Origin: Streptomyces sp. NRRL F-6676 | GTDB lineage: Bacteria > Actinomycetota > Actinomycetes > Streptomycetales > Streptomycetaceae | Length of the DNA: 64,000 nt | Reading direction: 5' to 3' | Assembly (NCBI RefSeq): GCF_000725625.1 | Contig: NZ_JOHS01000023.1 | Location: forward strand, 89,152 to 153,151 | Shown: in pieces, positions 33,789 through 51,119 of the stretch | Layout of the letters: every line of letters starts with the position of its first letter | How positions within the stretch are numbered: the first letter of the stretch is position 1 | The notes under the pieces: model-generated | Told to the model about the DNA's origin: nothing | The model's database searches: none | What the model saw: only the letters and a program-made list of their open reading frames with translations | Translations under genes and position numbers: made by a program

Positions 33789-35150
33789 ATGGACAAGCAG
33801 CAGGAGTTCGTGCTCCGGACCTTGGAGGAGCGCGACATCCGGTTCGTACGCCTGTGGTTCACGGACGTACTGGGCTTCCTCAAGTCCGTCGCCGTGGCCC
33901 CGGCCGAGCTCGAACAGGCATTCGATGAGGGGATCGGCTTCGACGGTTCCGCGATCGAGGGCTTCGCGCGGGTCTACGAGTCCGACATGATCGCCAAGCC
34001 GGACCCGTCCACGTTCCAGATCCTCCCCTGGCGCGCGGAGGCCCCCGGCACGGCCCGGATGTTCTGCGACATCCTGATGCCCGACGGCTCGCCGTCCTTC
34101 GCCGACCCCCGCTTCGTCCTCAAGCGCGCCCTGAACCGCGCCTCCGACCTGGGCTTCACCTTCTACACCCACCCGGAGATCGAGTTCTACCTGCTCAAGC
34201 ACAAGCCGGTGGACGGCACCCGGCCCACCCCCGCCGACAACTCCGGCTACTTCGACCACACCCCGCAGGCCATCGGCATGGACTTCCGCCGCCAGGCGAT
34301 CACCATGCTGGAGTCGATGGGCATCTCGGTGGAGTTCTCCCACCACGAGGGCGCCCCCGGCCAGCAGGAGATCGACCTGCGCTACGCCGACGCGCTCTCC
34401 ACGGCCGACAACATCATGACGTTCCGCCTGGTCATGAAGCAGGTCGCGCTGGAGCAGGGGCTCCAGGCCACGTTCATGCCGAAGCCGTTCTCGGAGTACC
34501 CCGGCTCCGGGATGCACTCCCACCTCTCCCTCTTCGAGGGCGACCGGAACGCGTTCTACGAGTCCGGCGCGGAGTACCAGCTCTCCAAGGTGGGCCGCTC
34601 CTTCATCGCGGGCCTGCTGCGGCACGCGGCGGAGATCTCGGCCGTCTCCAACCAGTGGGTCAACAGCTACAAGCGCATCTGGGGCGGCGCCGCCCGCACG
34701 GCCGGCGCGGGCGGCGAGGCGCCCTCGTACATCTGCTGGGGCCACAACAACCGCTCGGCCCTGGTCCGCGTCCCCATGTACAAGCCCGGCAAGACCGGCT
34801 CGGCCCGCGTCGAGATCCGCTCGCTGGACTCCGGCGCGAACCCGTACCTCTCCTACGCCGTCCTCCTCGCCGCCGGCCTCAAGGGCATCGAGGAGGGCTA
34901 CGAACTCCCGGCCGGCGCCGAGGACGACGTCTGGGCCCTCACCGACGGCGAACGCCGCGCCCTGGGCATCGAACCGCTCCCGCAGAACCTCGGCGAGGCG
35001 CTGGACCTGATGGAACGCAGCGACCTGGTCGCCGAGACCCTCGGCGAACACGTCTTCGACTTCTTCCTGCGCAACAAGAAGCAGGAGTGGGAGGAGTACC
35101 GCAGCGAGGTCACGGCGTTCGAGCTGAGGAAGAGTCTGCCGGTGCTGTAA
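33789..35150 (+). CDS. glnA2: Glutamine synthetase-like enzyme GlnA2 (gamma-glutamylpolyamine synthetase type)
   Basis: 453 residues with glutamine-synthetase signatures: GFDGSAIEGF (beta-grasp region), YTHPEIEFYLL, FMPKPFSEYPGSGMHSHLSL and the arginine-rich active-site segment. The length and the neighbours (nadE, panB, glnE) match S. coelicolor GlnA2, reported to glutamylate polyamines rather than ammonia. The segment corresponding to the adenylylated Tyr loop of GlnA reads EGYELPAGAED, without the usual target Tyr context, so GlnE is unlikely to modify it. The last 88 bp come from the integrated element, which restores the frame; rare codons AGG and AGT appear only in this tail. Confidence 0.88.
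   Translation: MDKQQEFVLRTLEERDIRFVRLWFTDVLGFLKSVAVAPAELEQAFDEGIGFDGSAIEGFARVYESDMIAKPDPSTFQILPWRAEAPGTARMFCDILMPDGSPSFADPRFVLKRALNRASDLGFTFYTHPEIEFYLLKHKPVDGTRPTPADNSGYFDHTPQAIGMDFRRQAITMLESMGISVEFSHHEGAPGQQEIDLRYADALSTADNIMTFRLVMKQVALEQGLQATFMPKPFSEYPGSGMHSHLSLFEGDRNAFYESGAEYQLSKVGRSFIAGLLRHAAEISAVSNQWVNSYKRIWGGAARTAGAGGEAPSYICWGHNNRSALVRVPMYKPGKTGSARVEIRSLDSGANPYLSYAVLLAAGLKGIEEGYELPAGAEDDVWALTDGERRALGIEPLPQNLGEALDLMERSDLVAETLGEHVFDFFLRNKKQEWEEYRSEVTAFELRKSLPVL
35063..35150 (+). repeat. attL: left direct repeat in the 3' end of glnA2
   Basis: Identical over 54 bp (35063-35116) to 43266-43319; the next 34 bp differ at only three bases, all synonymous, up to and including the TAA stop. This places strand exchange within the 54-bp core and shows that a protein gene, not a tRNA, is the target. 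Confidence 0.92.
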
Positions 35151-35186
35151 GCGCTGGTCAGAGCAGGTTTCCCGCTGATCAGGTGT

Positions 35187-35219
35187 GTGGGGCCGACGGA
35201 TGCGAGCCGTCGGCCCCAC
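35187..35219. terminator. Hairpin between glnA2 and int
   Basis: 13-bp perfect stem GTGGGGCCGACGG / CCGTCGGCCCCAC with a 7-nt loop, 36 bp past the glnA2 stop and just before the convergent int stop. It lies inside the element, so integration supplies glnA2 with a new terminator. Confidence 0.85.
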
Positions 35220-35225
35220 CTCGTG

Positions 35226-36494
35226 TCAGTGCCCGTGGGCCGTCTGTGGGCCGTCCGGCGCCGGATCGGTGGCCGTGTACAGGCCGTCTACGGCGCTCCG
35301 GGCCCGTGCGTCGCTACTCGGCATGAGGTGCGTGTACACCCGCAGCGTGAACCCCGGATCGTTGTGCCCAAGGTAGTGGCTCAGCGCTTTGATGTTCTCC
35401 CCGGCGTTCAACAGGACCGACGCGTAAAAGTGCCTCAGGGCGTGCATGCCGTGCTCACGAGCTGCCTGGTGACGCTCACCCGGCTCCGGCTCGGGGAGCA
35501 CCCCCGCCTTGACGAGAGCGGGCTTCCAAGTGCGGTCGTTGAAGTCGGTCCGCCGGACCGCGCCCGCGCCATCGAGGCGGGTGAACAGCAGGTTGCGCGT
35601 CACCATGCGGCCGTCCTTCCGCAGCCACGGCAAGGTGATCGGGACCGGCGGGAACTCCTTCATGTGGCGCTTGAGGACGTCCGCGATGCGATCGGGCAGA
35701 GGAACGTCACGGAGCTTGTCCCGCTTCGGGGGGCCGAAGACGAGACCTCCGGTTGTCACCTTCACCTGGTTCACGATGTGCAGCCAGCCGGACTCGAAGT
35801 CGATTTCGTCGACGGGGAGTCCGAAGATCTCCCCTTGCCGTAGACCGCATCCCGCTCCGAGGTCGACCGCCGCGCGGAAGCGCTCCGGCAGCGCCTCCCG
35901 GACGCCGAAGACGCGCTCAGCCGTCCACGGCACTACGCGGCCGGTCCCTGGCGCGGGAGGGCGTACGGATTGCGCGCGGCACGGGTTCTTCGGCAGGTGG
36001 CCGTCGTCAACGGCCGCGTTGAGGATGGTCGACACGTTGTTGTAGATCACGCGTCGGTACGACGTCGCGGGTACGGCCCGCTCCAACTCGCTCAGCCAGT
36101 CGCGGATGTGCTCCGGCTTGAAGGAACCGAGGGGGCGCGACCCAAGGTAGGGGATCGCGTGACCGCGAACGGTAGAGGTAACCGTCTCTCGGGTCGTCAG
36201 GTCGGTGGTCTGAGTCTTCAGCCACTTTTCGGCGTACTGCCGGAACGTCGTTCGGCCGGCGGCCGGGTCGACGTAGTTGCCGCTGTCCATGTCGGCCTCA
36301 ATCTTCGAGAGCCATTTCTCAGCGAGGCGCTTCTGTCCGTCGGGGTAGCTCTTGGACTTCTCGGTGCCGTCGGGGCCGATGTAGCGGGCCCGGTAGCGGA
36401 GGCCAGTGCCGTAGCGGTCGGAGCGGACGCGCACGGTCTTGCCGTTGGCGTCGGTCTCGGTCTTGTACCAGCGGTCTTGGATGTGGCCAGCCAT
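35226..36494 (-). CDS. Tyrosine-family site-specific integrase
   Basis: Catalyses insertion into and excision from glnA2. 422 residues: an arm-binding N-terminal part (about 1-75), a SAM-like core-binding domain (about 80-165) and the catalytic domain. Active-site residues visible: R219 in GLRQGE, K257 region in FGPPKRDK, H351 and R354 in HALRHF, H377 in LGHNDP, and nucleophile Y387 in RVYTHL. The set is complete, so the enzyme should be active. The last codons overlap a 21-bp repeat also found beside attR. Confidence 0.95.
   Translation of the reverse strand: MAGHIQDRWYKTETDANGKTVRVRSDRYGTGLRYRARYIGPDGTEKSKSYPDGQKRLAEKWLSKIEADMDSGNYVDPAAGRTTFRQYAEKWLKTQTTDLTTRETVTSTVRGHAIPYLGSRPLGSFKPEHIRDWLSELERAVPATSYRRVIYNNVSTILNAAVDDGHLPKNPCRAQSVRPPAPGTGRVVPWTAERVFGVREALPERFRAAVDLGAGCGLRQGEIFGLPVDEIDFESGWLHIVNQVKVTTGGLVFGPPKRDKLRDVPLPDRIADVLKRHMKEFPPVPITLPWLRKDGRMVTRNLLFTRLDGAGAVRRTDFNDRTWKPALVKAGVLPEPEPGERHQAAREHGMHALRHFYASVLLNAGENIKALSHYLGHNDPGFTLRVYTHLMPSSDARARSAVDGLYTATDPAPDGPQTAHGH
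35237..35257. repeat. 21-bp repeat, left copy (possible integrase arm site)
   Basis: GGGCCGTCTGTGGGCCGTCC plus one further G, identical and in the same orientation at 43144-43164. The copies lie 120 bp and 101 bp from the two core repeats, so in the excised circle they flank attP like P and P' arm sites. Each copy contains GGGCCGTC twice-like half repeats. This copy is inside the 3' end of int. Confidence 0.6.
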
Positions 36495-36632
36495 GAGGGG
36501 CTGACTCCCTTCCGGTAGCAGGCGCCGGTGGGGCCCGGGTGGGTCCTGTCCGGCCGGTTTCGGGCAGTGCTGAACCGAGCCCGCTACTCGCTACGGGCCT
36601 GGTCATCGGGGGTTTGGGGTGCTAGTGGGGGT

Positions 36633-36794
36633 GCTACCGGTAGCGGGTGAGGGTGCTACCGGTAGCACCCGGTTGGAGCCCGTTTCATGGGCCGCCGGGG
36701 CGGTGCCTCTATCGGCTAACGGCCTGGTCAGTGCGGGTTGGGGCCGCTAGCGGGAGCTCTAGCGCTAGAGGGTTGAGCCTCTAGCGCTAGAGGC
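36633..36794. repeat. Cluster of four perfect palindromes
   Basis: Two share the core GCTACCGGTAGC: 36633-36644 (12 bp) and 36651-36670, extended to GGGTGCTACCGGTAGCACCC (20 bp). Two share CTCTAGCGCTAGAG: 36757-36770 (14 bp) and 36777-36794, extended to GCCTCTAGCGCTAGAGGC (18 bp). In each pair one copy is short and one long, 18 to 20 bp apart. Confidence 0.85.
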
Positions 36795-36874
36795 GCCGTG
36801 GCCGGTCTCAGGGAGGCTGCGACAGGGGGTGCCGGTGGCTTCGAGAGGGGGTTTTCGGGGGTGCCGGGGGTGTG

Positions 36875-36987
36875 CCTCCCTGCCTCCCTGTGAGGCCGTT
36901 TGCGCTGATCAGGTGGAGGGAGGTGGGCCAGGGAGGCGGTGAGGGAGTTCTCCCTGTCTCCCTGGGCCGGCGGGCGGTTTCTCCCTG
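36875..36987. repeat. 8-bp iterated repeat YCTCCCTG
   Basis: Tandem copies CCTCCCTG at 36875 and 36883, an inverted copy CAGGGAGG at 36929, tandem TCTCCCTG at 36949 and 36957, and another at 36980. Tandem iterons of this kind often bind replication initiators or Xis/Int-type proteins. Confidence 0.65.
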
Positions 36988-37097
36988 CCGTTCGTGGGTG
37001 GGTGGGGGCGAGCCGTCCGGGCGCCATTCGCGCTCGGGTGGCGGGCCGGGGTGAGGGGCCGCTAGGTGCTAGGTGGCAGGTCGGTGGTGGTTTTGGT

Positions 37098-37146
37098 CGC
37101 TAGCGGGGTCGCTAGACCTAGCGGGGGAGGCCGCTAGGTCTAGCGG
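37098..37146. promoter_or_regulatory. Three CTAG palindromes abutting the xis stop
   Basis: CGCTAGCG at 37098-37105, CGCTAG-AC-CTAGCG at 37110-37123, and CCGCTAG-GT-CTAGCGG at 37131-37146. The last ends 4 bp before the xis stop codon. Same CTAG theme as the upstream palindromes and the GntR operator region. Confidence 0.75.
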
Positions 37147-37150
37147 TCGT

Positions 37151-37390
37151 TCAGGCCGCGTCGTTGAGGGCGGTCCGCTCGGCCTCCCACGCTCGTACGG
37201 CGGCGGGGTTGAAGCGGAGGTAGCGGCCGACGCGGAAGCCGGGCGGTCCGATGCGCTTGCGGCGCCACTGGTAGACGGTTTCGACGCTGGGGAGGCTGAA
37301 CATGGTGACCAGGTCTTCGGGGGTCAGGTAGCGGTCCGGGAGGCCGCCGCGCAGGGTGGCGCGCGGGTCGGCCGGCTCTTCGGTGGCCAT
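37151..37390 (-). CDS. Xis-like helix-turn-helix protein (excisionase/MerR-type)
   Basis: 79 residues with a winged-helix of the excisionase type: YLTPEDLVTMFSLPSVETVYQWRRKRIGPPGFRVGRYLRF. This is the usual directionality factor of actinomycete integrative elements, bending DNA so that Int excises. ATG 37390. Here it is separated from int by 656 bp rather than overlapping it, which is unusual. Confidence 0.88.
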   Translation of the reverse strand: MATEEPADPRATLRGGLPDRYLTPEDLVTMFSLPSVETVYQWRRKRIGPPGFRVGRYLRFNPAAVRAWEAERTALNDAA

Positions 37391-37469
37391 GGCGGTGATG
37401 ACTCCTCGTGTCCGTCGGGCGGTGCGTGGGAGTGGTGCCGGTAGCCGTCTTGGAGAGTTGCTGTATTCC

Positions 37470-37723
37470 AGCGTCCGCAGCGTCCCAGCGTCCGCGCGGC
37501 TGCATTGCCGCAGGCCGGTTGGGGTGAGGGGCGCGGACGCTGGGGCGGACGCTGCGGACGCCGGACGGCTGTAGCGTCCGCAGCCTTGGACGTGTCCGGG
37601 CCGCTGGTGTGCGGCCCGGCCCGGTGGGTGTTCCGGCTACGTCAGGGCTGGTCGGGCGGGGTCCGTCCCTGCCCGATGGGTGCCGTCTCCGGCCAGAGAG
37701 AGGCTTGGTCGGGTGCGGACGCT
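37470..37723. repeat. Left array of nonamer GCGGACGCT
   Basis: GCGGACGCT or its complement AGCGTCCGC at 37470, 37487, 37533, 37545, 37573 and 37715, plus near copies at 37479 and 37554. It fills the xis upstream region and enters the 3' end of the ATPase gene. The same motif recurs on the other side of the element. Confidence 0.75.
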
Positions 37724-39270
37724 GCGTCCTCGTTGGCGGGGGCGCGGGAGAGGATCAGGAGCTTGTGCCGGTGCCGGTCGGGGCTACGCTGCGTGTCGTC
37801 CACCGTGATCCCGATGGACCGCAGGAGCGGGGCGAGCCGTTTGACCCTGCCACCGGCGCGGGTGGCGTCCTTGGGCCAGCCCTGCGGCCGGATGCCGCCC
37901 GGCACGGGCAGGACTTCGAGCAGTTGGGCGGCCGTGCCCTGCCAGGTGCCGCTCTGGTCTACCAGGGCCGCGAGGGCGGCGCCGAACGGGTCGCCCTCCA
38001 AGGCGTCCGTGGCGACGTTCGTCGAGGTGGCCAGGTAGTCATCCAGGGTGTGCCAGTCCATGACCTGGTCGACGGCCGCGAGCACGCGGGCGAAGTCGGC
38101 CATGCGCGGCATGGTGTCCAGGCGTACCGACGGCAGTACGGCGAGCACGCACGCCAGCAGGTCGAAGAGAGCTCCCAGGATGGCGGGGCGGACCGCTTCG
38201 AACGCGGCGTTGAGTTCTTCCTCGGTGCGGCGCCGGTCTGCCTCGATCAACTGGAGATCGAGCATGAGGAGCCGTTCGGCAAGGTCCCCGGCGAGAGCTC
38301 CGGCATCGATCGTGGTCATGGCCAGCACCCGGCGGAAGCTCAGCACGACCACGTCGTCATCGGTGTACAGGGCCCGGTCAACGATCCCGTCCCCGGTCAC
38401 GGCCTTGCACAGTGTGTCGGAGAGCCACGGCGGGATGGTGGAGATGTTGTCCAGGCACAGGGCCCAGGAGTTGAACGCCTGCGCGGCCCACGCCTTGACG
38501 TCCCGCGGCTGGCTCCGCTTCGTGGCCGGAGACGGATCGATCAGGTTCACCACCATCTCGGCCGTCTTCGACTTGCCCGTGCCCTGCTCGCCCTTGAAGG
38601 TGAGCACCGGGTGCGGGATGTGCGGAATCCACGCCGCGACCAACCACGCTGCGAGCTGACGGAAGGTGGGTTCGTCCATGTTCAGCAGCGCGTGCAGCTT
38701 GGCCAGGCCGTCGCCGTCCAGGACCGGCGTGGGCATCGGTCCCATGGCGCCGGAGCGGCGGAAGAGCACCGGGGAGCGTTCCACCACGTTCCAGCCGGTC
38801 GGCGAGACGGTGACCGCGCGGCCGTCGGCGGTGCCGAGGTCGACCACGATCACGCCGGCCGCCTCGCTGCCCACCCGCAGGCTCACCGGGGCGGGGTCCC
38901 CGCCGTCCGCGATGCCTTCCAGCACGGTCATGGCGTCGGCGAGCGCGGACTGTGAGGCCACCTCCCCCTCGTAGGTGTCGGCGTACAGCCGGGCGAGCCG
39001 CTGACGTAGACCGGCCTTGCCGCGCAAGGGCAGCGCCAGGTTCGGGCCGTCCACAGCGACCGCGTAGGGGCGGCCGTCGGTGGACATCACGAACCGGTAC
39101 CCCTGGCGGGCGAGCGCCACGAGTCGGGAGGCGGCCGACGGCTTCTTACCGCTTCCGTCGTCGCCGTGGTCGGGTCGGCGGCCGGTCGACCGGGTCGGGT
39201 CGACTGCCGCCCGACTCTTGCCGGGGCGGGTGTGGCCGTTGACGGGCCGGTCGGATCGGGTCGCGGTCAC
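37642..39270 (-). CDS. Element-encoded P-loop ATPase, helicase/primase-associated type
   Basis: 542 residues. The N-terminal ~200 residues are of unclear fold; then Walker A GEQGTGKS (227-234), Walker B-like WALCLDNIS, sensor-like VLSFRRVLAMTTID, and a C-terminal region resembling the winged-helix tail of phage/plasmid replicative helicases. It may unwind the excised circle for replication; no primase or initiator domain is obvious. GTG 39270 overlaps the HNH stop (GTGA), so translation is coupled. Confidence 0.75.
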   Translation of the reverse strand: MTATRSDRPVNGHTRPGKSRAAVDPTRSTGRRPDHGDDGSGKKPSAASRLVALARQGYRFVMSTDGRPYAVAVDGPNLALPLRGKAGLRQRLARLYADTYEGEVASQSALADAMTVLEGIADGGDPAPVSLRVGSEAAGVIVVDLGTADGRAVTVSPTGWNVVERSPVLFRRSGAMGPMPTPVLDGDGLAKLHALLNMDEPTFRQLAAWLVAAWIPHIPHPVLTFKGEQGTGKSKTAEMVVNLIDPSPATKRSQPRDVKAWAAQAFNSWALCLDNISTIPPWLSDTLCKAVTGDGIVDRALYTDDDVVVLSFRRVLAMTTIDAGALAGDLAERLLMLDLQLIEADRRRTEEELNAAFEAVRPAILGALFDLLACVLAVLPSVRLDTMPRMADFARVLAAVDQVMDWHTLDDYLATSTNVATDALEGDPFGAALAALVDQSGTWQGTAAQLLEVLPVPGGIRPQGWPKDATRAGGRVKRLAPLLRSIGITVDDTQRSPDRHRHKLLILSRAPANEDAASAPDQASLWPETAPIGQGRTPPDQP

Positions 39271-39815
39271 GCGGACACCGCCTCTCCAGTCGAGCCCGCG
39301 CACGGCCGCACCGGTCGGGGCGCGCGGAGACAGTCGGGCCGCACGGCCGTCTGCCGGTCGGGCCCGTGCGGGGGCGATTCGGGCAGGCTGCGGGTAGACC
39401 GTGAGCCGATCGAATCGGCCGACCCGGCGGCCGTCGGCCGGGGCGTGACGCCGGGCGTGACGCGGGCCGTCACGCTGGTCAGCGCCGCGCGGTGGGCGTG
39501 CGCGAGTCGGGCCAACAGCGGCCAGTCGACCGGCCGGACGATCGGCCGACCCGGGTCGGCCCACCCCAGCAACACCAGGGCGAGCGAGAGCGGGAAGCGG
39601 TCGGCCTTGGCCTGGTTGCAGTCCCAACACGCCAGCACGAGCGAGGTGACCGACCACGACCGCCACAGCGACTGAGGGGCGACGTGGTCCAAGGTGGCCT
39701 CCCGCAGACCGGCGAACGGCTGGCGGCAGTAGGCGCAGCGCTTCCCGTCGCGGCGGGCAAGCTGCTGTTTCCGCAGCCGACGCCGCCGCGAGTTCAGCGG
39801 GTGTCCCTGCCTCAT
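39267..39815 (-). CDS. HNH endonuclease
   Basis: 182 residues. The N-terminal ~75 hold the HNH zinc fold: CAYCRQPF, the catalytic ATLDHVAPQSL, and CWDCNQAKAD, so two CxxC pairs and the central His are intact. The C-terminal ~100 residues are Ala/Pro/Arg-rich and probably disordered. It lies between the sigma fusion and the ATPase with ATGA and GTGA overlaps. Possible roles are nicking for replication or transfer, terminase-like cutting, or attack on competing DNA. Confidence 0.85.
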   Translation of the reverse strand: MRQGHPLNSRRRRLRKQQLARRDGKRCAYCRQPFAGLREATLDHVAPQSLWRSWSVTSLVLACWDCNQAKADRFPLSLALVLLGWADPGRPIVRPVDWPLLARLAHAHRAALTSVTARVTPGVTPRPTAAGSADSIGSRSTRSLPESPPHGPDRQTAVRPDCLRAPRPVRPCAGSTGEAVSA

Positions 39816-40657
39816 GCCGCCTGCTCCAGCGCGCCCACGGTGGCCGGAAGGTCCATGACCACCACCGCGTTGGCCCGCATGCTCGCCAACGCCTTGGTCA
39901 TGACGCGGCGGGCCGTGGTCTTGCTCAGCCCCATACGCTTCTCGACCTCGACCATGGGCAGGCCGTCCAGGAACCGCAGCACGATCAGCTCACGCTCGCG
40001 CTCGCTCAATCCGTTCACCAGGTCCAGAGCGCTCAGGTAGCCGGTCACGGTCTCCTCAGGGCGCGACAGCTCATCACTGGCTGCCCAATCCGGCAGACGC
40101 CCCTTGTCGTCCTCCTTCATGAGCAATTCGCTCTTGGAGTAGTTCACACGCTTGATCCGGTAGTAGTCGGACAGCACCCAACGGGCCTGCCGTCCGAGCC
40201 ATCGGTACGCGTTGTCGATCTCGATGCTTTCGTCCACCGCCTCAGCGGCCTTGATGAACGTCTCGCTCGTCAGGTCTTCCGAAAGGTGCCAGTCCCCCGT
40301 ACGCCTGTAGTGCCAGTTCCACACGAAGCTCCGATAGCGGGCGAAGAGCTCGGCCAGCACCTTGGAGTTCATGGAGAGCTGCGGCTTCAGCTCCGGCAGA
40401 CCCAGCGCCGTCGGGGACGTGCCGTAGACCGCCGTCAGCAGCCGCACGTACACCTCACGCGGGGCGCGCCGCCCCAGCTCCCACGCGATGATCAGTGCCC
40501 GGACCGACGACGGATGCGTACCGATCCGCACTTCCTGACGGTTCGCTTCGGCCCAGAGCCGCTCAACCAGGTCCTTCAGGCTCCAACCCCGCTCCAAGCG
40601 CGCCGCACGCAGCGCCGTCACCTGCTTGTCCGTCCGTTCCGCGACAGTTCCAGGCAT
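39812..40657 (-). CDS. XRE-ECF sigma factor fusion, element master regulator candidate
   Basis: 281 residues. Residues ~1-90 form an XRE-like helix-turn-helix (LRAARLERGWSLKDL, WELGRRAPREVYVRLL). Residues ~100-175 look like sigma region 2 (SEDLTSETFIKAA, YRWLGRQARWVLSDYYRI) and ~215-270 like sigma region 4 (GLSERERELIVLRFLDGLPM, LSKTTARRV). It heads the minus-strand operon and is divergent from the GntR repressor across a palindrome-rich promoter region. It may switch on the excision/replication genes. A non-sigma DNA-binding regulator is the alternative. Confidence 0.75.
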   Translation of the reverse strand: MPGTVAERTDKQVTALRAARLERGWSLKDLVERLWAEANRQEVRIGTHPSSVRALIIAWELGRRAPREVYVRLLTAVYGTSPTALGLPELKPQLSMNSKVLAELFARYRSFVWNWHYRRTGDWHLSEDLTSETFIKAAEAVDESIEIDNAYRWLGRQARWVLSDYYRIKRVNYSKSELLMKEDDKGRLPDWAASDELSRPEETVTGYLSALDLVNGLSERERELIVLRFLDGLPMVEVEKRMGLSKTTARRVMTKALASMRANAVVVMDLPATVGALEQAA

Positions 40658-40816
40658 GATGGATGTGCCCCTTCGAGGGTCAGGGAGCGGCTATCTGCTT
40701 GGCGGTAGGGAGCCGCTCCTTGCTGTTGCCTGGCGTTCACCAGGACTTTCACGGTTCTGCGCACGCCGGACTGGTGGTCTCCGAGCGGCCGTCCGACCGG
40801 CGGGCACATCCCTAAG

Positions 40817-40860
40817 GTTCCCTAGGGCACCCTAGGGTGTCAAGCGGTACGCTAGGGAAC
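40817..40860. promoter_or_regulatory. CCCTAGGG operator array in the divergent promoter
   Basis: Two perfect CCCTAGGG palindromes (40820-40827 and 40830-40837, the latter extended to CACCCTAGGGTG) and a distant inverted pair GTTCCCTAG (40817) / CTAGGGAAC (40852). It lies 30-70 bp before the GntR start and in the path of the divergent sigma-fusion promoter, the expected place for GntR-mediated control. Confidence 0.72.
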
Positions 40861-40889
40861 GCAACCGCTGAGACGAGGGAGCTAACGAG

Positions 40890-41648
40890 ATGTCGGATCA
40901 GGCCGACAATCGAGCGCCGTACGCGCAGATTGCCGCCCACTACACGGAGCGGATCACGTCCGGCGAACTACAGCCGGGCTCACTCCTGCCGAGTATCAAG
41001 AGCATTTCGCAGGAGTGGCAGGTCAGTACCGCGACTGCTGAGAAGGCGTTGCGGAAGCTCCGCAGCGAGGGACTGGTGAGGGGGATCCACGGGATTGGCA
41101 CGGAGGTTCTGGACCGCCCCTCTCCCATGTCCTCGGGGTCCCAGCGTCAAGACCGAGGGCGTCGGAGCGGGTCAAGTTGGGGATCCGGCGAACGGTCCGA
41201 CTCCCATGAGGCGGCAGTGGTGCCGGCGCCTACGGACGTGGCTCAGGCACTGGACATTGCGCCCGGCGCAGACGTGATCAGGCGCTGTCGCGTGTACCGC
41301 GACCGACACGGGATCGTCGCGCACTCCACATCATGGATCCCCGCCCGGTACGGGAAGCTGATCCCCCAGTTGGCGAAGAGCGAGCGTCTGACCGGCGGCA
41401 CGTCGCTACAGCTCATCGCTCAGGCCACCGGTCGGCCGATCACGCATCGGATCGATACCGCGTCGGCCCGCTTGCTGACGCCGGCGCAAGCAGAGCTCTT
41501 GGAGCTGGACTCCGCCCAGCCGCCGACGGAACCGGTGGTCGTGATGACAGCCCAGTTCGTCGACAGCGAGAGCAACGTCGTGGAGTACGGCGTAGATCTC
41601 GGGAGCCCGGGCCGTACGTGGCGAACAGAGTCGGAAGTCACCGCATGA
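40890..41648 (+). CDS. GntR-family (HutC/UTRA) repressor, KorSA-like
   Basis: 252 residues: an N-terminal GntR winged helix (YAQIAAHYTERITSGELQPG, VSTATAEKALRKL) and a C-terminal UTRA ligand-binding domain from about residue 110. KorSA-type GntR proteins keep actinomycete integrative elements quiescent by repressing replication and transfer genes. Lower GC than host genes. Its stop overlaps the kinase start (ATGA). Confidence 0.9.
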   Translation: MSDQADNRAPYAQIAAHYTERITSGELQPGSLLPSIKSISQEWQVSTATAEKALRKLRSEGLVRGIHGIGTEVLDRPSPMSSGSQRQDRGRRSGSSWGSGERSDSHEAAVVPAPTDVAQALDIAPGADVIRRCRVYRDRHGIVAHSTSWIPARYGKLIPQLAKSERLTGGTSLQLIAQATGRPITHRIDTASARLLTPAQAELLELDSAQPPTEPVVVMTAQFVDSESNVVEYGVDLGSPGRTWRTESEVTA

Positions 41649-42208
41649 CGGCCACTGGCGACGCCTCCCGGCCGTTCTGCGTCCTGATGGCCGGGCTCCC
41701 CGGTTCAGGCAAAACGACGCTATCCCGCGCGCTTACGGCCCGGGGGTTCGTCAGGCTGTGCCCGGACGAAGAGATGTACCGCAGACACGGCGTGTACGGC
41801 GTCGACTTCCCCCGGGGGGTCTTCCCCACCCTCGAACGCCCCGTTCTTGATGAGATCTCCGCAGAGCTCCGTGACCAACTTCGAGCCGGGCATGACGTGG
41901 TGGTGGACCACGGCTTTTGGACGCCGGAGGACCGTGCACGGTGGCGCTCGATCGCGACCGGCGCCGGCGCAACCACGGCACTCATCTACCTCGAAGCGAG
42001 CCACGAAAAACTCTGGGCCCGCGTGAGCAAGCGGAACGCGCGTCATGAGGCCGATCCGAACTCGATCTACTTCGCAGAAAGCGACCTGCTTCGCTATCGC
42101 ACCCGGTTCGTACCCCCAGGGCCGGACGAACCTCACATCGTGTACAACAGCGATCCCGACTCGGTACTGAAGGCACTGGACGAAGCCAGCCATCAGAGCA
42201 GGGACTAG
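41645..42208 (+). CDS. Small P-loop kinase (zeta-toxin/AAA-kinase-like)
   Basis: 187 residues. Walker A MAGLPGSGKTT at the N terminus, a catalytic Asp in CPDEEMYRR, VVDHGFW at the Walker B position, and an Arg-rich lid (RVSKRNARHE). It resembles small nucleotide/antibiotic-type kinases and zeta toxins, commonly found after the GntR gene in actinomycete mobile elements; the substrate is unknown. No antitoxin-like partner is next to it, so a toxin role is uncertain. Confidence 0.82.
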   Translation: MTATGDASRPFCVLMAGLPGSGKTTLSRALTARGFVRLCPDEEMYRRHGVYGVDFPRGVFPTLERPVLDEISAELRDQLRAGHDVVVDHGFWTPEDRARWRSIATGAGATTALIYLEASHEKLWARVSKRNARHEADPNSIYFAESDLLRYRTRFVPPGPDEPHIVYNSDPDSVLKALDEASHQSRD

Positions 42209-42370
42209 AAGGGGCGTCCTTCGGCCGCACGACCCTTGGCAGCTCGCTGCGCTCGCGCGCGACGGCCGCCGTACGTCGCTCGGAACCGTCGCGCACTTCC
42301 GGCCGGTCTGCCGGACAGACGCTGTAACACCCTGGGTGTTGCAGCCCCTCGTGCCCCGTCGGCGGCGTTG

Positions 42371-42404
42371 AAGAGACCACCCCGTCCGCGCGGGGTGGTC
42401 TCTT
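42371..42404. terminator. 14-bp perfect hairpin after the kinase gene
   Basis: Arms AAGAGACCACCCCG and its complement around loop TCCGCG; the right arm ends in TCTT. It is the most terminator-like of the right-end hairpins. Confidence 0.85.
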
Positions 42405-42415
42405 CGTCTTCCCCG

Positions 42416-42603
42416 GCGTCCGCCAGCGTCCGCACTTCGCTCCCTGCTAAGAGCTGCTCTGAGCTGCGGGAAGAGCGCTCTTAGCGGCGGAGTAGGTGTG
42501 GACGCTGCGGACACTAGCGGACGCTAATCACTGCGTTCAGCGTCCGGCAGAAAGAGTGCAGGTCGGATTGGGCGAGCGAAGCTCAGCGGACGCTGCGGAC
42601 GCT
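42416..42603. repeat. Right array of nonamer GCGGACGCT
   Basis: Exact copies (either strand) at 42425, 42517, 42586 and 42595, plus one-mismatch copies at 42416, 42498, 42507 and 42539. Tandem head-to-tail pairs occur at 42498/42507 and 42586/42595. Confidence 0.75.
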
Positions 42604-42634
42604 GTTTTCCCTCAACTCTCTAGGGCGGCGGGGG

Positions 42635-42686
42635 ACGGCTCTTCAGAGGGGGGCAGCGGGCACGAACGCCCCCTCTGAAGAGCCGT
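42635..42686. other. 18-bp perfect hairpin
   Basis: Arms ACGGCTCTTCAGAGGGGG (42635-42652) and complement (42669-42686) around a 16-nt loop. Perfect pairing of this length is unusual for an ordinary terminator. Confidence 0.85.
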
Positions 42687-42767
42687 GGTGATCCGCCTAG
42701 ACCGGGAGAGGCCGGGTGGCGCGCGCCGCGTCCTGCCGTCCGCCCCCTGGAAGGCTGCTGAGGTGGC

Positions 42768-42813
42768 CTTCCAAGAGGAGCACCCGGGCGGACGCGGGTG
42801 CTCCTCTTGGAAG
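42768..42813. other. 19-bp perfect hairpin
   Basis: Arms CTTCCAAGAGGAGCACCCG (42768-42786) and complement (42795-42813) around loop GGCGGACG, which itself carries the GGCGGACG core of the nonamer repeat. Confidence 0.87.
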
Positions 42814-43084
42814 CTGTCAGGGACCACTGGCAGAGGGTGTCAGGCAGCCGTCAGACCAGCGGCGGCCGACGCGAGCGCAGCGAGCCCAAAGACGCGCGGC
42901 CGTAGGCCGCCCCTTCTTGCTCTTCCCGCCGACGGGCCCCAACAGCCGGACGCGTTCCGGTCGGGCCGTATAGCAGCCCGCCGGCGCCCCTCCCGAGAGC
43001 GCGGAACTGGACGAATCCGGGGACCGCCGACACGGGCCGCTATCCACTAACGTGCTGGTCACCTACGGTTCGAGCCGCTAGCAC

Positions 43085-43126
43085 AGCCGCTATCGTTAGC
43101 GACCTCTGCCGCTAGCGATAGCGGCT
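43085..43126. other. 17-bp hairpin with CTAG/GATAGC arms near attR
   Basis: Arms AGCCGCTATCGTTAGCG and CGCTAGCGATAGCGGCT pair at 16 of 17 positions around an 8-nt loop, 140 bp from the attR core. Confidence 0.8.
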
Positions 43127-43143
43127 CAGCCGGGCCCAGGCCC

Positions 43144-43164
43144 GGGCCGTCTGTGGGCCGTCCG
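43144..43164. repeat. 21-bp repeat, right copy (possible integrase arm site)
   Basis: Same sequence and orientation as 35237-35257, 101 bp before the attR core. Confidence 0.6.
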
Positions 43165-43265
43165 AGGGTGACCAACGACGACAGACGACGACAGTCAACG
43201 ACTGCTCCCATGCTGGTCAGCGCGAGGTTCGCGTTAGCGGCCCTGGTGGATCTGTCGGTGCGTCA

Positions 43266-43353
43266 CTTCCTGCGCAACAAGAAGCAGGAGTGGGAGGAGT
43301 ACCGCAGCGAGGTCACGGCCTTCGAGCTGCGGAAGAGCCTGCCGGTGCTGTAA
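43266..43353 (+). pseudogene. attR with the displaced original 3' end of glnA2
   Basis: Encodes the last 28 residues of GlnA2 (FLRNKKQEWEEYR and on to SLPVL) and the TAA. It differs from the left copy at three bases, GCC/CGG/AGC here versus GCG/AGG/AGT on the left, all synonymous. The codons here are the host-preferred ones, indicating that this is the ancestral chromosomal end and the left copy came in with the element. Confidence 0.9.
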
Positions 43354-43457
43354 CCGGACGGTGAGGGCCCGGGAACCGGACGGCGAGAGGCCGGGAAGGT
43401 GAGGGCCCGGGAACCGGACGGTGAGGGCCCGGGAACCGGACGGGTGAGGGCCGGGGG
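43353..43457. repeat. 22-bp tandem repeat beside attR
   Basis: Units ACCGGACGGTGAGGGCCCGG plus GA at 43353 and 43413 are identical; 43375 and 43435 are variants and 43397-43412 is a partial unit. It begins at the glnA2-remnant stop codon, so before integration it followed glnA2. Confidence 0.8.
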
Positions 43458-43506: not shown

Positions 43507-44655
43507 TCAGCGTCGGCCCTCGGCGAAGCGGGCGAGGTCTTCCGCCGTCGGCCTCTCCAGCAGGGACTCCGCCGCGCCGTCGAGCATGCGGGCGATCTCC
43601 GTGGAACGGGGGAGCATCGTCTTCTCGTAGGCGTGTACGGCGTCGTCGACCGTGGCGGAGCGGGTGAGCGCGAGGGCGAGTTCGCAGGCGTCGAGCATGG
43701 CGAGGTTGACGCCGACGCCGAGCGGCGGCATGAGGTGGGCGGCGTCCCCGAGGAGCGCCACGGTGGGGGAGTGCTCCCAGGTGTGCGGGACGGGGAGGGC
43801 GAAGAGCGGGCGGTCGACGTAGGGGCCGTCGTTGTCGGTGAGCATCCGCAGCAGCTCCGGTGACCAGCCGGCGTACTCCCGCAGCAGGTGGGCGCGGACG
43901 GACTCGGTGTCTTCCGGGCGCAGCCCTTCCCGGGTGAGCCAGTCCACGGGGGTCTTCCGTATGACGTAGACGCGCATGTGGCCGCCGCTGTTGCGCTGCG
44001 CGAAGAGGCCGCGCTCGCCGTCGGCGATGTGCGCGTTGCCCTTGCCGACCAGGGCGGACAGTTCGGGGTGCGCGGTCTCCATGTCGTCGAACCACGCTTC
44101 GAGGAAGCCGACGCCGGTGTAGCCCGGTTTCGCGGACGAGACGGCCTCGCGGACGCGGGAGAACGCGCCGTCCGCGCCGATCACGAGGTCCGTCTCGACG
44201 GTCGTGCCGTCGGTGAACGTCAGCGTGCGCGGGCCGTCGGCCGGTCCGCCGACCGAGGCGAGCGCGCGGCCCCACTGGACGGTGCCGGGCGCGAGGGAGC
44301 GGAGCAGCAGGCCGCGGAGCTGGCCGCGGTCGATCTCGGGGGCGGCGGTCTCGCCCTCGGCGGGCAGGTGGTGGCCGATCAGTCGGCCCGCCGGGTCGAG
44401 GTGGCGCATCTCCTGGCTCTCGGGCCTGGCGAGCGCGAAGAACTCCTCCAGCAGGCCCGCCTCGCGCAGGGCGAGCTGGCCGTCGTCCTCGTGCAGGTCG
44501 AGGGAGCCGCCCTGGTTGCGGGAGCCGGCGTCCGGGTCGCGGTCGTACACGGTCACCGCGAGGCCGTGCCGTTGCAGGACGCGGGCGCAGGTCAGACCGC
44601 CGGGGCCGGCGCCGATGACGCTGATGCGGGCGTGGGCAGGGGTGGGTGAGGGCAT
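43507..44655 (-). CDS. FAD-dependent monooxygenase, TetX/aromatic-hydroxylase type
   Basis: 382 residues. Rossmann FAD loop VIGAGPGGLTCARVL, NADPH/FAD motif DLVIGADGAFS, and the second FAD motif LLGDAAHLMPPLGVGVN. Such enzymes hydroxylate aromatic substrates or inactivate tetracyclines. ATG 44655 has AAGGAG upstream. It is divergent from a TetR gene with a palindrome between, so substrate-inducible expression is likely. Confidence 0.9.
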   Translation of the reverse strand: MPSPTPAHARISVIGAGPGGLTCARVLQRHGLAVTVYDRDPDAGSRNQGGSLDLHEDDGQLALREAGLLEEFFALARPESQEMRHLDPAGRLIGHHLPAEGETAAPEIDRGQLRGLLLRSLAPGTVQWGRALASVGGPADGPRTLTFTDGTTVETDLVIGADGAFSRVREAVSSAKPGYTGVGFLEAWFDDMETAHPELSALVGKGNAHIADGERGLFAQRNSGGHMRVYVIRKTPVDWLTREGLRPEDTESVRAHLLREYAGWSPELLRMLTDNDGPYVDRPLFALPVPHTWEHSPTVALLGDAAHLMPPLGVGVNLAMLDACELALALTRSATVDDAVHAYEKTMLPRSTEIARMLDGAAESLLERPTAEDLARFAEGRR

Positions 44656-48095: not shown

Positions 48096-51000
48096 ATGAC
48101 GGTGCCGGGGCGCAGGAGCAGTACCTTCACACGGCTGCTGCGGCACGGGTTCACCGATCCGTCCGCCTCCGAACGGCTGCTCGACGCCCCCGAACTCGCC
48201 GCCGTGCGCGCCGACCCCGTCCTCCTGGAGGCCCTCGGCGCCACCGCCGATCCCGACCTCGCGCTGCTCGGCCTCGTCCGGCTCCTTGAGGCCCAGCCGG
48301 ACGACACCGCACGGCACGAACTGCTGGACACCCTGATAGCGGCCAAGCCGCTGCGCGACCGGCTGCTCGGGGTGCTCGGCGCCTCCACCGCGCTCGCCGA
48401 CCACCTCGCCCGCCACCCCGCCGACTGGCGGGCCCTGGTCACCTACGAGGCACGGGACCTGCACCCCGGCGTCCCCGAGTTCGAGCGGCGGCTCGCGGAC
48501 GCCGGGGACCCGGTCGCGCTGCGCGTCGCCTACCGCCGCTGTCTGCTGTCGCTCGCCGCGCGCGACGTGTGCGGAACCACCGACCTCGCCCAGACCGCCG
48601 CCGAACTCGCCGACCTCGCCACCGCCACCCTGCGCGCCGCCCTCGCCCTCGCCGAGGCCGCCGCGCCCGAGGACGCCGCGCTCTGCCGGCTCGCCGTCAT
48701 CGCGATGGGCAAGTGCGGCGGCCACGAGCTGAACTACGTCTCCGACGTGGACGTCATCTTCGTCGCGGAACCCGCCGAGTCCCCGGGCGGCGACGGCGAC
48801 GGCGAGACCCGGGCGTTGCAGGCCGCCACCCGGCTCGCCTCGCACCTGATGCGGATCTGCTCCGAGACCACGATCGAGGGCAGCATCTGGCCCGTCGACG
48901 CCAATCTGCGCCCCGAGGGCCGCAACGGGCCCCTCGTCCGCACCCTCAGCAGCCACCTCGCCTACTACCAGCGGTGGGCCAAGACCTGGGAGTTCCAGGC
49001 GCTGCTCAAGGCCCGCCCGGTCGCCGGGGACGCCGAGCTCGGCGCGGCCTACGCCGACGCCCTCCAGCCGCTGGTCTGGGAGGCCGCCGAGCGCGAGAAC
49101 TTCGTCGCCGACGTGCAGAAGATGCGCCGCCGGGTGATCGAGAACATCCCCGCCGCCGAGATCGACCGCGAACTCAAACTGGCCCCCGGCGGACTGCGGG
49201 ACGTCGAGTTCGCCGTCCAGCTCCTCCAGCTCGTGCACGGCCGCTCCGACACCTCCCTGCGCAGCCGCACCACCCTCGACGCGCTGGCCGCCCTCGCCGC
49301 GGGCGGCTACGTCGGCCGCACCGACGCCGAACAGCTCGACGCGGCCTACCGCTTCCTGCGCACCATGGAGCACCGCATCCAGCTCCACCGGCTGCGCCGC
49401 ACCCACCTCGTCCCCGAGGACGAGGCCGATCTGCGGCGCCTCGGCCGCTCGCTCGGGCTGCGCACCGACCCCGTCGCCGCGCTCACCCGCGAGTGGAAAC
49501 GGCACGCCGGCGTCGTACGGCGGCTGCACGAGAAGCTGTTCTACCGGCCGCTGCTCGACGCCGTCGCCCAGCTCGCCCCCGGCGAGGCCCGGCTCAGCCC
49601 CGGCGCCGCCCGCGAACGCCTCGTCGCCCTCGGGTACGCCGACCCCGGCGCCGCCCTGCGCCATCTGGAGGCGCTCGCCTCCGGGGTCACCCGCAAGGCC
49701 GCCATCCAGCGCACCCTGCTGCCGGTGCTCCTCGGCTGGTTCGCCGACTCCGCCGACCCCGACGCCGGGCTGCTCAACTTCCGCAAGGTCTCCGACGCGC
49801 TCGGCAAGACCCCCTGGTACCTGCGGCTGCTGCGCGACGAGGGCGCCGCCGCCGAGAACCTCGCGCGTGTCCTGTCCGCCGGGCGGCTCGCGCCCGACCT
49901 GCTGATGCGCGCGCCCGAGGCGGTGGCGCTGCTCGGCGACGGGGACGGGCGGCGCGCGGGCGGCGGGCTCGCCCCGCGCTCCCGCGCCCAGCTCGAACAG
50001 GAGATCGTCGCCGCCGTGGGGCGGGCCGACGGCGCCGAGCAGGCGGTCACCGCCGCGCGCGGGGTACGCCGGCGGGAGCTGTTCCGCACCGCCGCCGCCG
50101 ACATCGTCGGCTCCTACGGCACCGAGGAGACGCCCGTCGAGGCGGACCAGGGGGCCCTGGTCGACCTCGTCGGCGGCGCGATCTCCGACCTCACCGCCGC
50201 CACGCTCGCCGGAACGCTGCGGGCCGTGGTGCGCGAACGGTGGGGCGACACGCTGCCCACCCGGTTCGCCGTCATCGGCATGGGCCGCTTCGGCGGCCAC
50301 GAACTCGGCTACGGCTCCGACGCCGACGTCCTCTTCGTGCACGAGCCGCGCGAGGGCGTCGACGAGACGGAGGCGGGGCGGGCCGCCAACGCCGTCGTCA
50401 CCGAGATGCGGCGGCTGCTGCAACTGCCGAGCGCGGACCCGCCGCTGCTCGTCGACGCGGATCTGCGGCCCGAGGGGAAGTCCGGGCCGCTGGTACGGAC
50501 GCTGACCTCCTACGCCGCGTACTACCGCCGGTGGTCGCTGGGGTGGGAGGCGCAGGCACTGCTGCGGGCGGAGCCGGTGGCGGGGGACGCGGAGCTGGGG
50601 GCGCGGTTCCTGGAGCTGGTCGACCCGCTGCGGTATCCGCGGGGCGGGCTGGGGGAGGACGCGGTACGCGAGATCCGGCGGCTGAAGGCGCGGATGGAGG
50701 CGGAGCGGATGCCGCGGGGCGCCGATCCGACGCTGCACACGAAGCTCGGGCGGGGCGGGCTGTCCGACGTGGAGTGGACGGTGCAGTTGATGCAGTTGCG
50801 GCACGGGTACGAGGTGCGGGAGCTGCGGACCACCCGGACGCGGGCCGCGCTGTCGGCGGCGCGGGACGCGGGGCTGCTGTCGGGGGAGGACGCGGCGACG
50901 TTGGACGAGGCGTGGGTGCTGGCCACGCGGGTGCGGAACGCGGTGATGCTGGTGCGGGGGAGGGCGGGGGACACGTTTCCCTCCGACGCGCGGGAGTTGG

Positions 51001-51119
51001 CGGCGGTGGGGCGGTACCTGGGGTACGGACCGGGGCATGTCGGGGACATGCTCGACGACTACCGCCGCACGACGCGGTTGGCGCGCGCGGTGGCGGAGAC
51101 GCTGTTCTACGACGCGTGA
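48096..51119 (+). CDS. glnE: Bifunctional glutamine synthetase adenylyltransferase/deadenylylase
   Basis: Adds AMP to or removes it from GlnA-type glutamine synthetase according to nitrogen status. 1007 residues with two nucleotidyltransferase domains: GKCGGHELNYVSDVDVIFV in the N half and GRFGGHELGYGSDADVLFVH in the C half, each followed by a helical domain. GGAGG lies 8 nt before ATG 48096. It is convergent with malR. Confidence 0.96.
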   Translation: MTVPGRRSSTFTRLLRHGFTDPSASERLLDAPELAAVRADPVLLEALGATADPDLALLGLVRLLEAQPDDTARHELLDTLIAAKPLRDRLLGVLGASTALADHLARHPADWRALVTYEARDLHPGVPEFERRLADAGDPVALRVAYRRCLLSLAARDVCGTTDLAQTAAELADLATATLRAALALAEAAAPEDAALCRLAVIAMGKCGGHELNYVSDVDVIFVAEPAESPGGDGDGETRALQAATRLASHLMRICSETTIEGSIWPVDANLRPEGRNGPLVRTLSSHLAYYQRWAKTWEFQALLKARPVAGDAELGAAYADALQPLVWEAAERENFVADVQKMRRRVIENIPAAEIDRELKLAPGGLRDVEFAVQLLQLVHGRSDTSLRSRTTLDALAALAAGGYVGRTDAEQLDAAYRFLRTMEHRIQLHRLRRTHLVPEDEADLRRLGRSLGLRTDPVAALTREWKRHAGVVRRLHEKLFYRPLLDAVAQLAPGEARLSPGAARERLVALGYADPGAALRHLEALASGVTRKAAIQRTLLPVLLGWFADSADPDAGLLNFRKVSDALGKTPWYLRLLRDEGAAAENLARVLSAGRLAPDLLMRAPEAVALLGDGDGRRAGGGLAPRSRAQLEQEIVAAVGRADGAEQAVTAARGVRRRELFRTAAADIVGSYGTEETPVEADQGALVDLVGGAISDLTAATLAGTLRAVVRERWGDTLPTRFAVIGMGRFGGHELGYGSDADVLFVHEPREGVDETEAGRAANAVVTEMRRLLQLPSADPPLLVDADLRPEGKSGPLVRTLTSYAAYYRRWSLGWEAQALLRAEPVAGDAELGARFLELVDPLRYPRGGLGEDAVREIRRLKARMEAERMPRGADPTLHTKLGRGGLSDVEWTVQLMQLRHGYEVRELRTTRTRAALSAARDAGLLSGEDAATLDEAWVLATRVRNAVMLVRGRAGDTFPSDARELAAVGRYLGYGPGHVGDMLDDYRRTTRLARAVAETLFYDA

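Follow-up and report, generated by a model that had tools for sequence, protein, structure and literature searches.

The window analysed here is a 64,000-nucleotide stretch of contig NZ_JOHS01000023.1 from Streptomyces sp. NRRL F-6676, and this report concerns an 8.2-kb element that lies against the 3′ end of its glnA2 gene. The gene (33789-35150, forward strand) encodes a protein of the glutamine synthetase family (Gln-synt_C match at 1e-120) in an intact, uninterrupted frame, and its end forms part of a 91-nt direct repeat that runs from 35063 to 35153 and returns, 96% identical, at 43266-43356, a start-to-start distance of 8203 bp. The initial 54 nt of the repeat (35063-35116 and 43266-43319) match perfectly, and, of the four mismatches between the copies, three leave the encoded residue unchanged and the fourth lies past the stop codon. 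Tail to tail with glnA2, with 75 nt between the two stop codons, lies int (35226-36494, reverse strand), which encodes a tyrosine integrase of 422 aa. Residues R219, H351, R354, H377 and Y387 are present in it and are identical in all 85 integrases aligned, its own included.

A preliminary description of this DNA had read these features as an integrative element that uses the 3′ end of glnA2 as its attachment site. The 54-bp perfect repeat on which it relied is there, within the longer 91-nt repeat, and the integrase beside the left copy is complete, with its catalytic residues in place. Together with the empty site, the occupied sites and the integrase clade described below, these features bear out the reading, and we put the probability that an 8.2-kb integrative element was inserted at this position by its own tyrosine integrase at about 0.9. 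Across 12.5 kb including the element, nine families of direct repeats of at least 20 nt were found, and the sole other exact pair was a single 21-mer (D6); given a perfect 54-nt repeat and so few other exact pairs, chance is not a reasonable account. The element has a G+C content of 69.2% compared to 72.4% in the remaining window.

The gene name rests on context and similarity. The gene glnE lies close by at 48096-51119, a neighbourhood which we take to mark glnA2, and the protein's matches to chains named 'Glutamine synthetase 1' are far weaker (1e-57) than those to other glutamine synthetases (1e-121). In Streptomyces coelicolor, GlnA2 (SCO2241) is described as a gamma-glutamylpolyamine synthetase (PMC8998196). 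A suggested tie between the element and nitrogen or polyamine metabolism found no support, as the families of its seven proteins give no pointer to it and the element restores the GlnA2 C-terminus.

Occupied, empty and decayed sites

An integrase scan covering one genome for each species yielded 233 confirmed relatives, the best 80 of which were analysed. A search of other Streptomyces genomes for family integrases beside glnA2, as had been proposed, showed that integrase and glnA2 stand tail to tail at 34 of the 40 closest loci (L003-L042), with 78-88 nt from the glnA2 stop to the last integrase codon. At two of the other loci the glnA2 position falls in an assembly gap (L016) or at a contig end (L042). 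The 39 genomes behind these 40 loci were also searched with a 94-nt glnA2 tail; at least two matches, some of them fragmentary, were present in 38, and in 25 genomes attL and attR were paired on a single contig at a distance of 7-33 kb.

A wider survey of 392 genomes of the genus, in which two tail candidates were scored per genome and integrase matches were taken to E 1e-160, places these figures in proportion. The glnA2 tail was found in 388 genomes and gave two matches in 59. An integrase at least 70% identical to that of the window occurred in 24 genomes, the next best being 65%, and all 24 had two glnA2 tails compared to 35 of the 368 others; since the genomes are related, significance values serve as a guide only. 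When those 35 genomes were searched again, 8 second matches were short chance matches, 2 were likely whole-gene or assembly duplications and 25 were second tails with no integrase of that similarity. Fragments of this type of integrase persist at 8 of 13 such second-tail sites examined (11 of the survey plus L167 and L168), and hence many of these sites are decayed elements. The near-universal presence of the glnA2 tail means that the integrase could be developed into a tool for integration at a single site.

An empty site was found in genome G286 by way of the gene downstream of the element, which encodes a flavin adenine dinucleotide (FAD) dependent enzyme and is 87% identical there. In G286, glnA2 is followed by the same downstream genes with a single tail match, and the joined flanks of the window align to it across the junction over 453 nt at 95.6% identity. 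A second aligned block begins with the downstream gene, and between the two blocks G286 has about 0.8 kb of extra DNA. A 61% identical integrase lies elsewhere in that genome. The preliminary description had held that a relative sharing the right flank but lacking the element would speak against insertion; this is the wrong way round, as G286 is the empty site and supports insertion.

Free attP forms of the glnA2 clade were also sought: none was present in 50,697 phage records, where no integrase match reached 60% identity, or among the plasmid matches listed, where the nearest integrase was 60% identical and belonged to another clade. One genome, G005 (L007/L146, contig C82, 21366-40133), carries three successive glnA2 tails at spacings of 15 and 4 kb, likely the product of tandem accretion in which the outer tail is older and has partly decayed.

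Proposed crossover and the restored gene end

Comparison of attL (35063-35153, forward strand) with attR (43266-43356, forward strand) was extended to 31 pairs, made up of the window and 29 other genomes, with G005 counted twice. In every pair the two sites mismatch at 35062 and agree at 35064, so that in the window their homology begins at 35063/35064, and agreement fades past the stop codon. With the remnant in G070 set aside, 12 of 360 third codon positions differ on the left side in the remaining 30 pairs, compared to 62 of 480 on the right side. The segment AACAAG (35073-35078, forward strand) is the only 6-nt window in which attL equals attR in 30 of 30 pairs (30 of 31 with G070), and the crossover most likely falls there, close to where the homology begins on the left. 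Around it, at 35064-35087 on the forward strand, a putative core site is formed by an imperfect 9-6-9 dyad, TTCCTGCGC-AACAAG-AAGCAGGAG, in which 6 of 9 arm positions match. A dyad around the crossover is the expected layout of a tyrosine-recombinase core site.

If the crossover lies in AACAAG, then the part of attL to its right, namely about 23 codons (431-453) and the stop, would come from the element, and the orphan 28-codon tail with stop at attR would, to the right of the crossover, be the end that the chromosomal gene had before insertion. At the three tail sites that vary in the window comparison, attB of G286 equals attR at two, which leans, if thinly, towards an element-supplied end at attL. 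Many genomic islands are described as restoring the gene they enter (PMC12884075), and here an uninterrupted GlnA2 C-terminus with its stop is encoded by 31 of 31 attL copies. Over 868 codons, attL and attR differ by 82 synonymous and 21 nonsynonymous changes, whereas random single changes would be 23% synonymous. Nine of the nonsynonymous changes belong to the remnant in G070 and three each to the outer copy in G005 (W to R, Y to C and L to P) and to G007; the others are in G009 and G016 (two each) and in G025 and G034 (one each), and the window has none. Element-carried gene ends offer a natural test of selection.

The stretch between the stops of glnA2 and int contains a 13-bp hairpin (35187-35219), probably a terminator that the element brings with it. 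All 35 elements examined have a hairpin after the glnA2 stop, with z below -1.5 against simple shuffles in 34, and 12 of 15 pairs of the consensus show two-sided changes, that is, covariation. The most likely role, judged from sequence, is that of a terminator for the facing genes glnA2 and int, because insertion parts glnA2 from the region that originally followed it. With the gene end, stop and hairpin that it carries, the element shows how an expressed metabolic gene can be used as a landing site without damage. Candidate arm sites for the integrase are CTGGTCAG just past the glnA2 stop (35154-35161, forward strand), where C(A/T)GGTCAG is conserved across the family, and CTGGTCAC (43055) with a second CTGGTCAG (43213) at 43055-43220 on the forward strand, 211 and 53 bp inside attR.

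Several observations weigh against this account or parts of it. The glnA2 stop lies 4.5 kb from the integrase in L018 and 1.2 kb in L037, with extra DNA between; L019 has a glnA2-clade integrase with a hairpin after it, the 1.9 kb that follow (from 11242 on) contain no glnA2 tail, and its genome has two glnA2 tails elsewhere; and the integrase of L040 (66.7% identical) is not at glnA2, its genome G037 having one tail match. No excised circle was seen, and integrases in phage records were all below 60% identity, with none confirmed in viral contigs. As to the details, a dyad shifted from the proposed one scores 7/9 rather than 6/9, attB of G286 equals attL, not attR, at one of the three variable tail sites, and the arm motif lies within 300 bp of attR in just 10 of 30 elements. 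Shuffles give 0.6, so that the motif is enriched yet confined to a minority of right ends, and an arm-site function is put forward as a hypothesis.

An integrase family biased to protein-gene ends

In a tree of 85 integrases, from 96 loci examined, a clade of 38 (support 100/99) contains all 33 labelled with glnA2, and the only unlabelled members of this clade are L016, L018, L019, L037 and L042. Elsewhere in the tree the labels are a protein-O-mannosyltransferase gene (17), gpmA (9), nusG (4) and a Smoa_sbd gene (2), and 20 of the 85 have none. Direct-repeat searches of the DNA fetched recovered the attachment sites of 2 of 43 sister loci, and targets were therefore assigned by the gene tail adjoining each integrase, with one example each of four target genes checked against Pfam or NCBIfam. 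The gpmA and nusG labels require more than one change on the tree, and loyalty to one gene is thus not strict everywhere. With clades for differing target genes in one tree, the family is suited to the study of target change by tyrosine integrases.

A tRNA or other RNA gene as attachment site was rejected. ARAGORN found no tRNA gene in the whole window, Rfam gave no match between 35000 and 43500, and no tRNA gene lies within 1.3 kb downstream of the 80 relatives' integrases, although some of their contigs end sooner; a tRNA-Trp gene lies 1.35-1.47 kb from the integrase in four relatives.

The 25 paired glnA2-site elements are diverse in content. A TraB-type match occurs in 14 (12 by homology to a protein of locus L083 and 9 by FtsK family) and a Prim-Pol match in 16, and the TraB-bearing elements measure 11-22 kb. 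Of the 11 without a TraB match, those in L006 (9.9 kb), L024 (8.7 kb) and L026 (7.3 kb) are small, but the other 8 measure 15-33 kb, and so a divergent TraB can be missed.

A protein at least 74% identical to the 542-aa ATPase-like protein of the element (see below) was found in 12 of 295 genomes, the window's among them, and one 61-64% identical in 8 more, of which the three loci fetched have a different context. Among the 11 other loci of the closer group, xis adjoins in 11, a family integrase (57-63% identical) in 10, an HNH gene in 10, and a GntR gene with a kinase gene in 6, and TraB occurs in none. Gene-tail repeats delimit elements of 8.2-9.3 kb in 6 of the 10 with an integrase, at gpmA (L195, L198), the mannosyltransferase gene (L199, L202) and the Smoa_sbd gene (L200, L204); with glnA2 (the window and L006), a similar 8-10 kb backbone occurs with different integrases at four genes. 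A related locus in Streptomyces sp. NBC_00562, L083 (NZ_CP107792.1), is an 18.4-kb circular plasmid with FtsK, Prim-Pol, an xis-like gene and a mannosyltransferase-clade integrase, and is probably the free form of a sister actinomycete integrative and conjugative element (AICE).

On balance, and by a narrow measure, we favour a broader picture in which a Streptomycetaceae integrase family has specialised on conserved protein-gene 3′ ends (glnA2, gpmA, nusG, protein-O-mannosyltransferase, Smoa_sbd and probably more), its clades largely keeping to one gene. The attP of the glnA2 clade would carry a replacement gene end, a stop and a private covarying terminator, and a distinct class of 8-10 kb elements without tra genes would trade integrases as target modules and ride on larger conjugative kin that share its sites.

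The nearest known systems are the AICEs (PMC3218068, PMC9513070), which are likewise described with a tyrosine integrase at an att site, xis, a GntR regulator and insertion at gene 3′ ends, and which are also resembled by the same-site paired elements with TraB-type or Prim-Pol matches. The element of the window differs in lying at glnA2 rather than a tRNA gene and in that no TraB or Prim-Pol was found in it. The preliminary description called glnA2 an unusual target. This needs qualifying, as protein-gene sites are already on record: insertion sites in a Streptomyces population are given as 36 tRNA genes, 14 protein-coding genes and one intergenic site (Choufa 2022, PMC9513070), and AICEs with pSLS-type integrases are all excepted from the tRNA-gene rule (Ghinet 2011, PMC3218068). 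The likeness to this sub-family is one of description, namely non-tRNA insertion (PMC3218068). AICE03 of strain RLB3-6, in rlmN, is reported as a case in which a change of integrase takes a backbone out of a tRNA gene and into a protein gene (PMC9513070), whereas the integrase swaps in the present family run between protein genes, and the 11-nt repeat of AICE03 differs from the 86-91 nt ending at the stop codon in glnA2 elements. Remnant or mobilizable tra-less elements described in Frankia (PMC3218068) also have an integrase and an excisionase and no transfer gene of their own; for the window element mobilization is inferred, with no transfer recognition site identified. No literature report naming glnA2 as an attachment site was found, although one may exist in AICE supplementary tables or island databases, and PMC11755657 contains both search words and does not, in the text available, name glnA2 in this role. 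Protein-gene attachment is known for AICEs; what is described here is a family biased to protein-gene ends, with glnA2 as a site.

Element content and possible modes of transfer

Beyond int, six genes were recognised. On the reverse strand lie xis (37151-37390; HTH_17 excisionase-like, 79 aa), the gene for the ATPase-like protein (37642-39270; 542 aa), and genes for an HNH endonuclease-like protein (39267-39815; 182 aa) and a sigma-70/ECF-like regulator (39812-40657; 281 aa); on the forward strand lie those for a GntR/UTRA regulator (40890-41648; 252 aa), which matches PHROG 10724 at 1.7e-37, and an AAA_33 kinase-like protein (41645-42208; 187 aa). The ATPase-like protein had no sequence match in Pfam, NCBIfam, PHROG or PDB; its P-loop, GEQGTGKS, was read by eye, and it is 30-36% identical to a Prim-Pol-adjacent protein of the larger elements. 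Its gene and the HNH gene (37642-39815) overlap by four bases and are still adjacent in 10 of 11 related elements fetched. Library scans of the seven proteins showed no FtsK/TraB, Prim-Pol, capsid, terminase or packaging family. Of the AICE replication initiators, Prim-Pol was not found among the seven proteins, RepSA and RepAM were sought through the same libraries, and an ATPase of the kind that neighbours Prim-Pol is present. The sole PADLOC match is the HNH protein, across its HNH domain, and no defence function is claimed.

Non-coding features include two perfect inverted repeats in the int-xis interval (36757-36771/36778-36792 and 37110-37124/37131-37145), which may be Int/Xis or regulator sites, and two clusters of the same words, GCGTCCGC/GCGGACGC, at 37467-37581 and 42416-42603, the first of which is a candidate replication origin. 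About 1 kb of repeat-rich DNA separates the kinase gene from attR; the two extra frames in it had no Pfam match and no FtsK/TraB match.

Integrative and mobilizable elements in general have an integrase and an excisionase and no transfer gene of their own, and the present element is probably mobilizable rather than self-transmissible. The integrase would cross over near the left edge of homology, likely in AACAAG, after which glnA2 would be completed by the element's last codons and stop, followed by its hairpin, and the original end left as an orphan at attR. Excision would depend on Int and Xis, replication could start from the repeat clusters with the help of the ATPase, and transfer would be provided in trans by a conjugative element, because the element has no TraB. 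A possible helper is a second, conjugative element in the same genome (L220, C5:160000-179900), where a 505-aa frame at C5:169096 encodes an FtsK protein and a distant tyrosine integrase (24% identical) lies nearby.

That the element is instead a complete AICE which conjugates unaided is improbable. The TraB-type matches in 14 of its 25 same-site kin, which are 11-22 kb in size, and the FtsK gene of the L083 plasmid, with its related integrase, speak for it, but neither a TraB nor a Prim-Pol homologue was found in the window element or in L006, its nearest small relative. The window's contig gave no FtsK match, and TraB was found in 0 of 10 backbone relatives with an adjacent integrase, where a divergent form may escape detection. 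Packaging by a helper phage, as a phage satellite or phage-derived island, is unlikely but deserves more weight: small size, the lack of a transfer gene, the ATPase-HNH-sigma-GntR content and the PHROG match of the GntR protein would all suit it, whereas the seven proteins include no capsid, terminase or packaging family, the phage records contain no integrase match of 60% or more and none was confirmed in viral contigs, and the integrase and xis have their kin in TraB-bearing elements.

Two further readings concern the insertion itself. The repeat could have been left behind when a gene was duplicated or by homologous recombination, with the integrase a bystander, since in 27 of the 35 genomes searched again a second tail stands without an integrase at least 70% identical, and two of these look like whole-gene or assembly duplications. 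However, the identical left edge in all 31 pairs, the two tails in all 24 carriers, the integrase fragments at second-tail sites and the empty site in G286 make this very improbable indeed. An insertion that is real but now an old, inactive relic is a minority prospect, about on a par with the phage satellite: no circular form was seen and many sites in other genomes are scars, but the int and xis frames are intact, and attL and the orphan tail at attR still code for identical residues, unlike those of G070. An integrative element placed by its own integrase accordingly remains the preferred reading.

Two observations concern the DNA beyond the element. The top NCBIfam match of the FAD monooxygenase encoded at 43507-44655 is Tet(X), at 171 of the 750 bits of the cut-off, and no resistance claim is made. 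Immediately right of attR, 22-bp near-identical repeats, AACCGGACGGTGAGGGCCCGGG, occupy 43352-43455.

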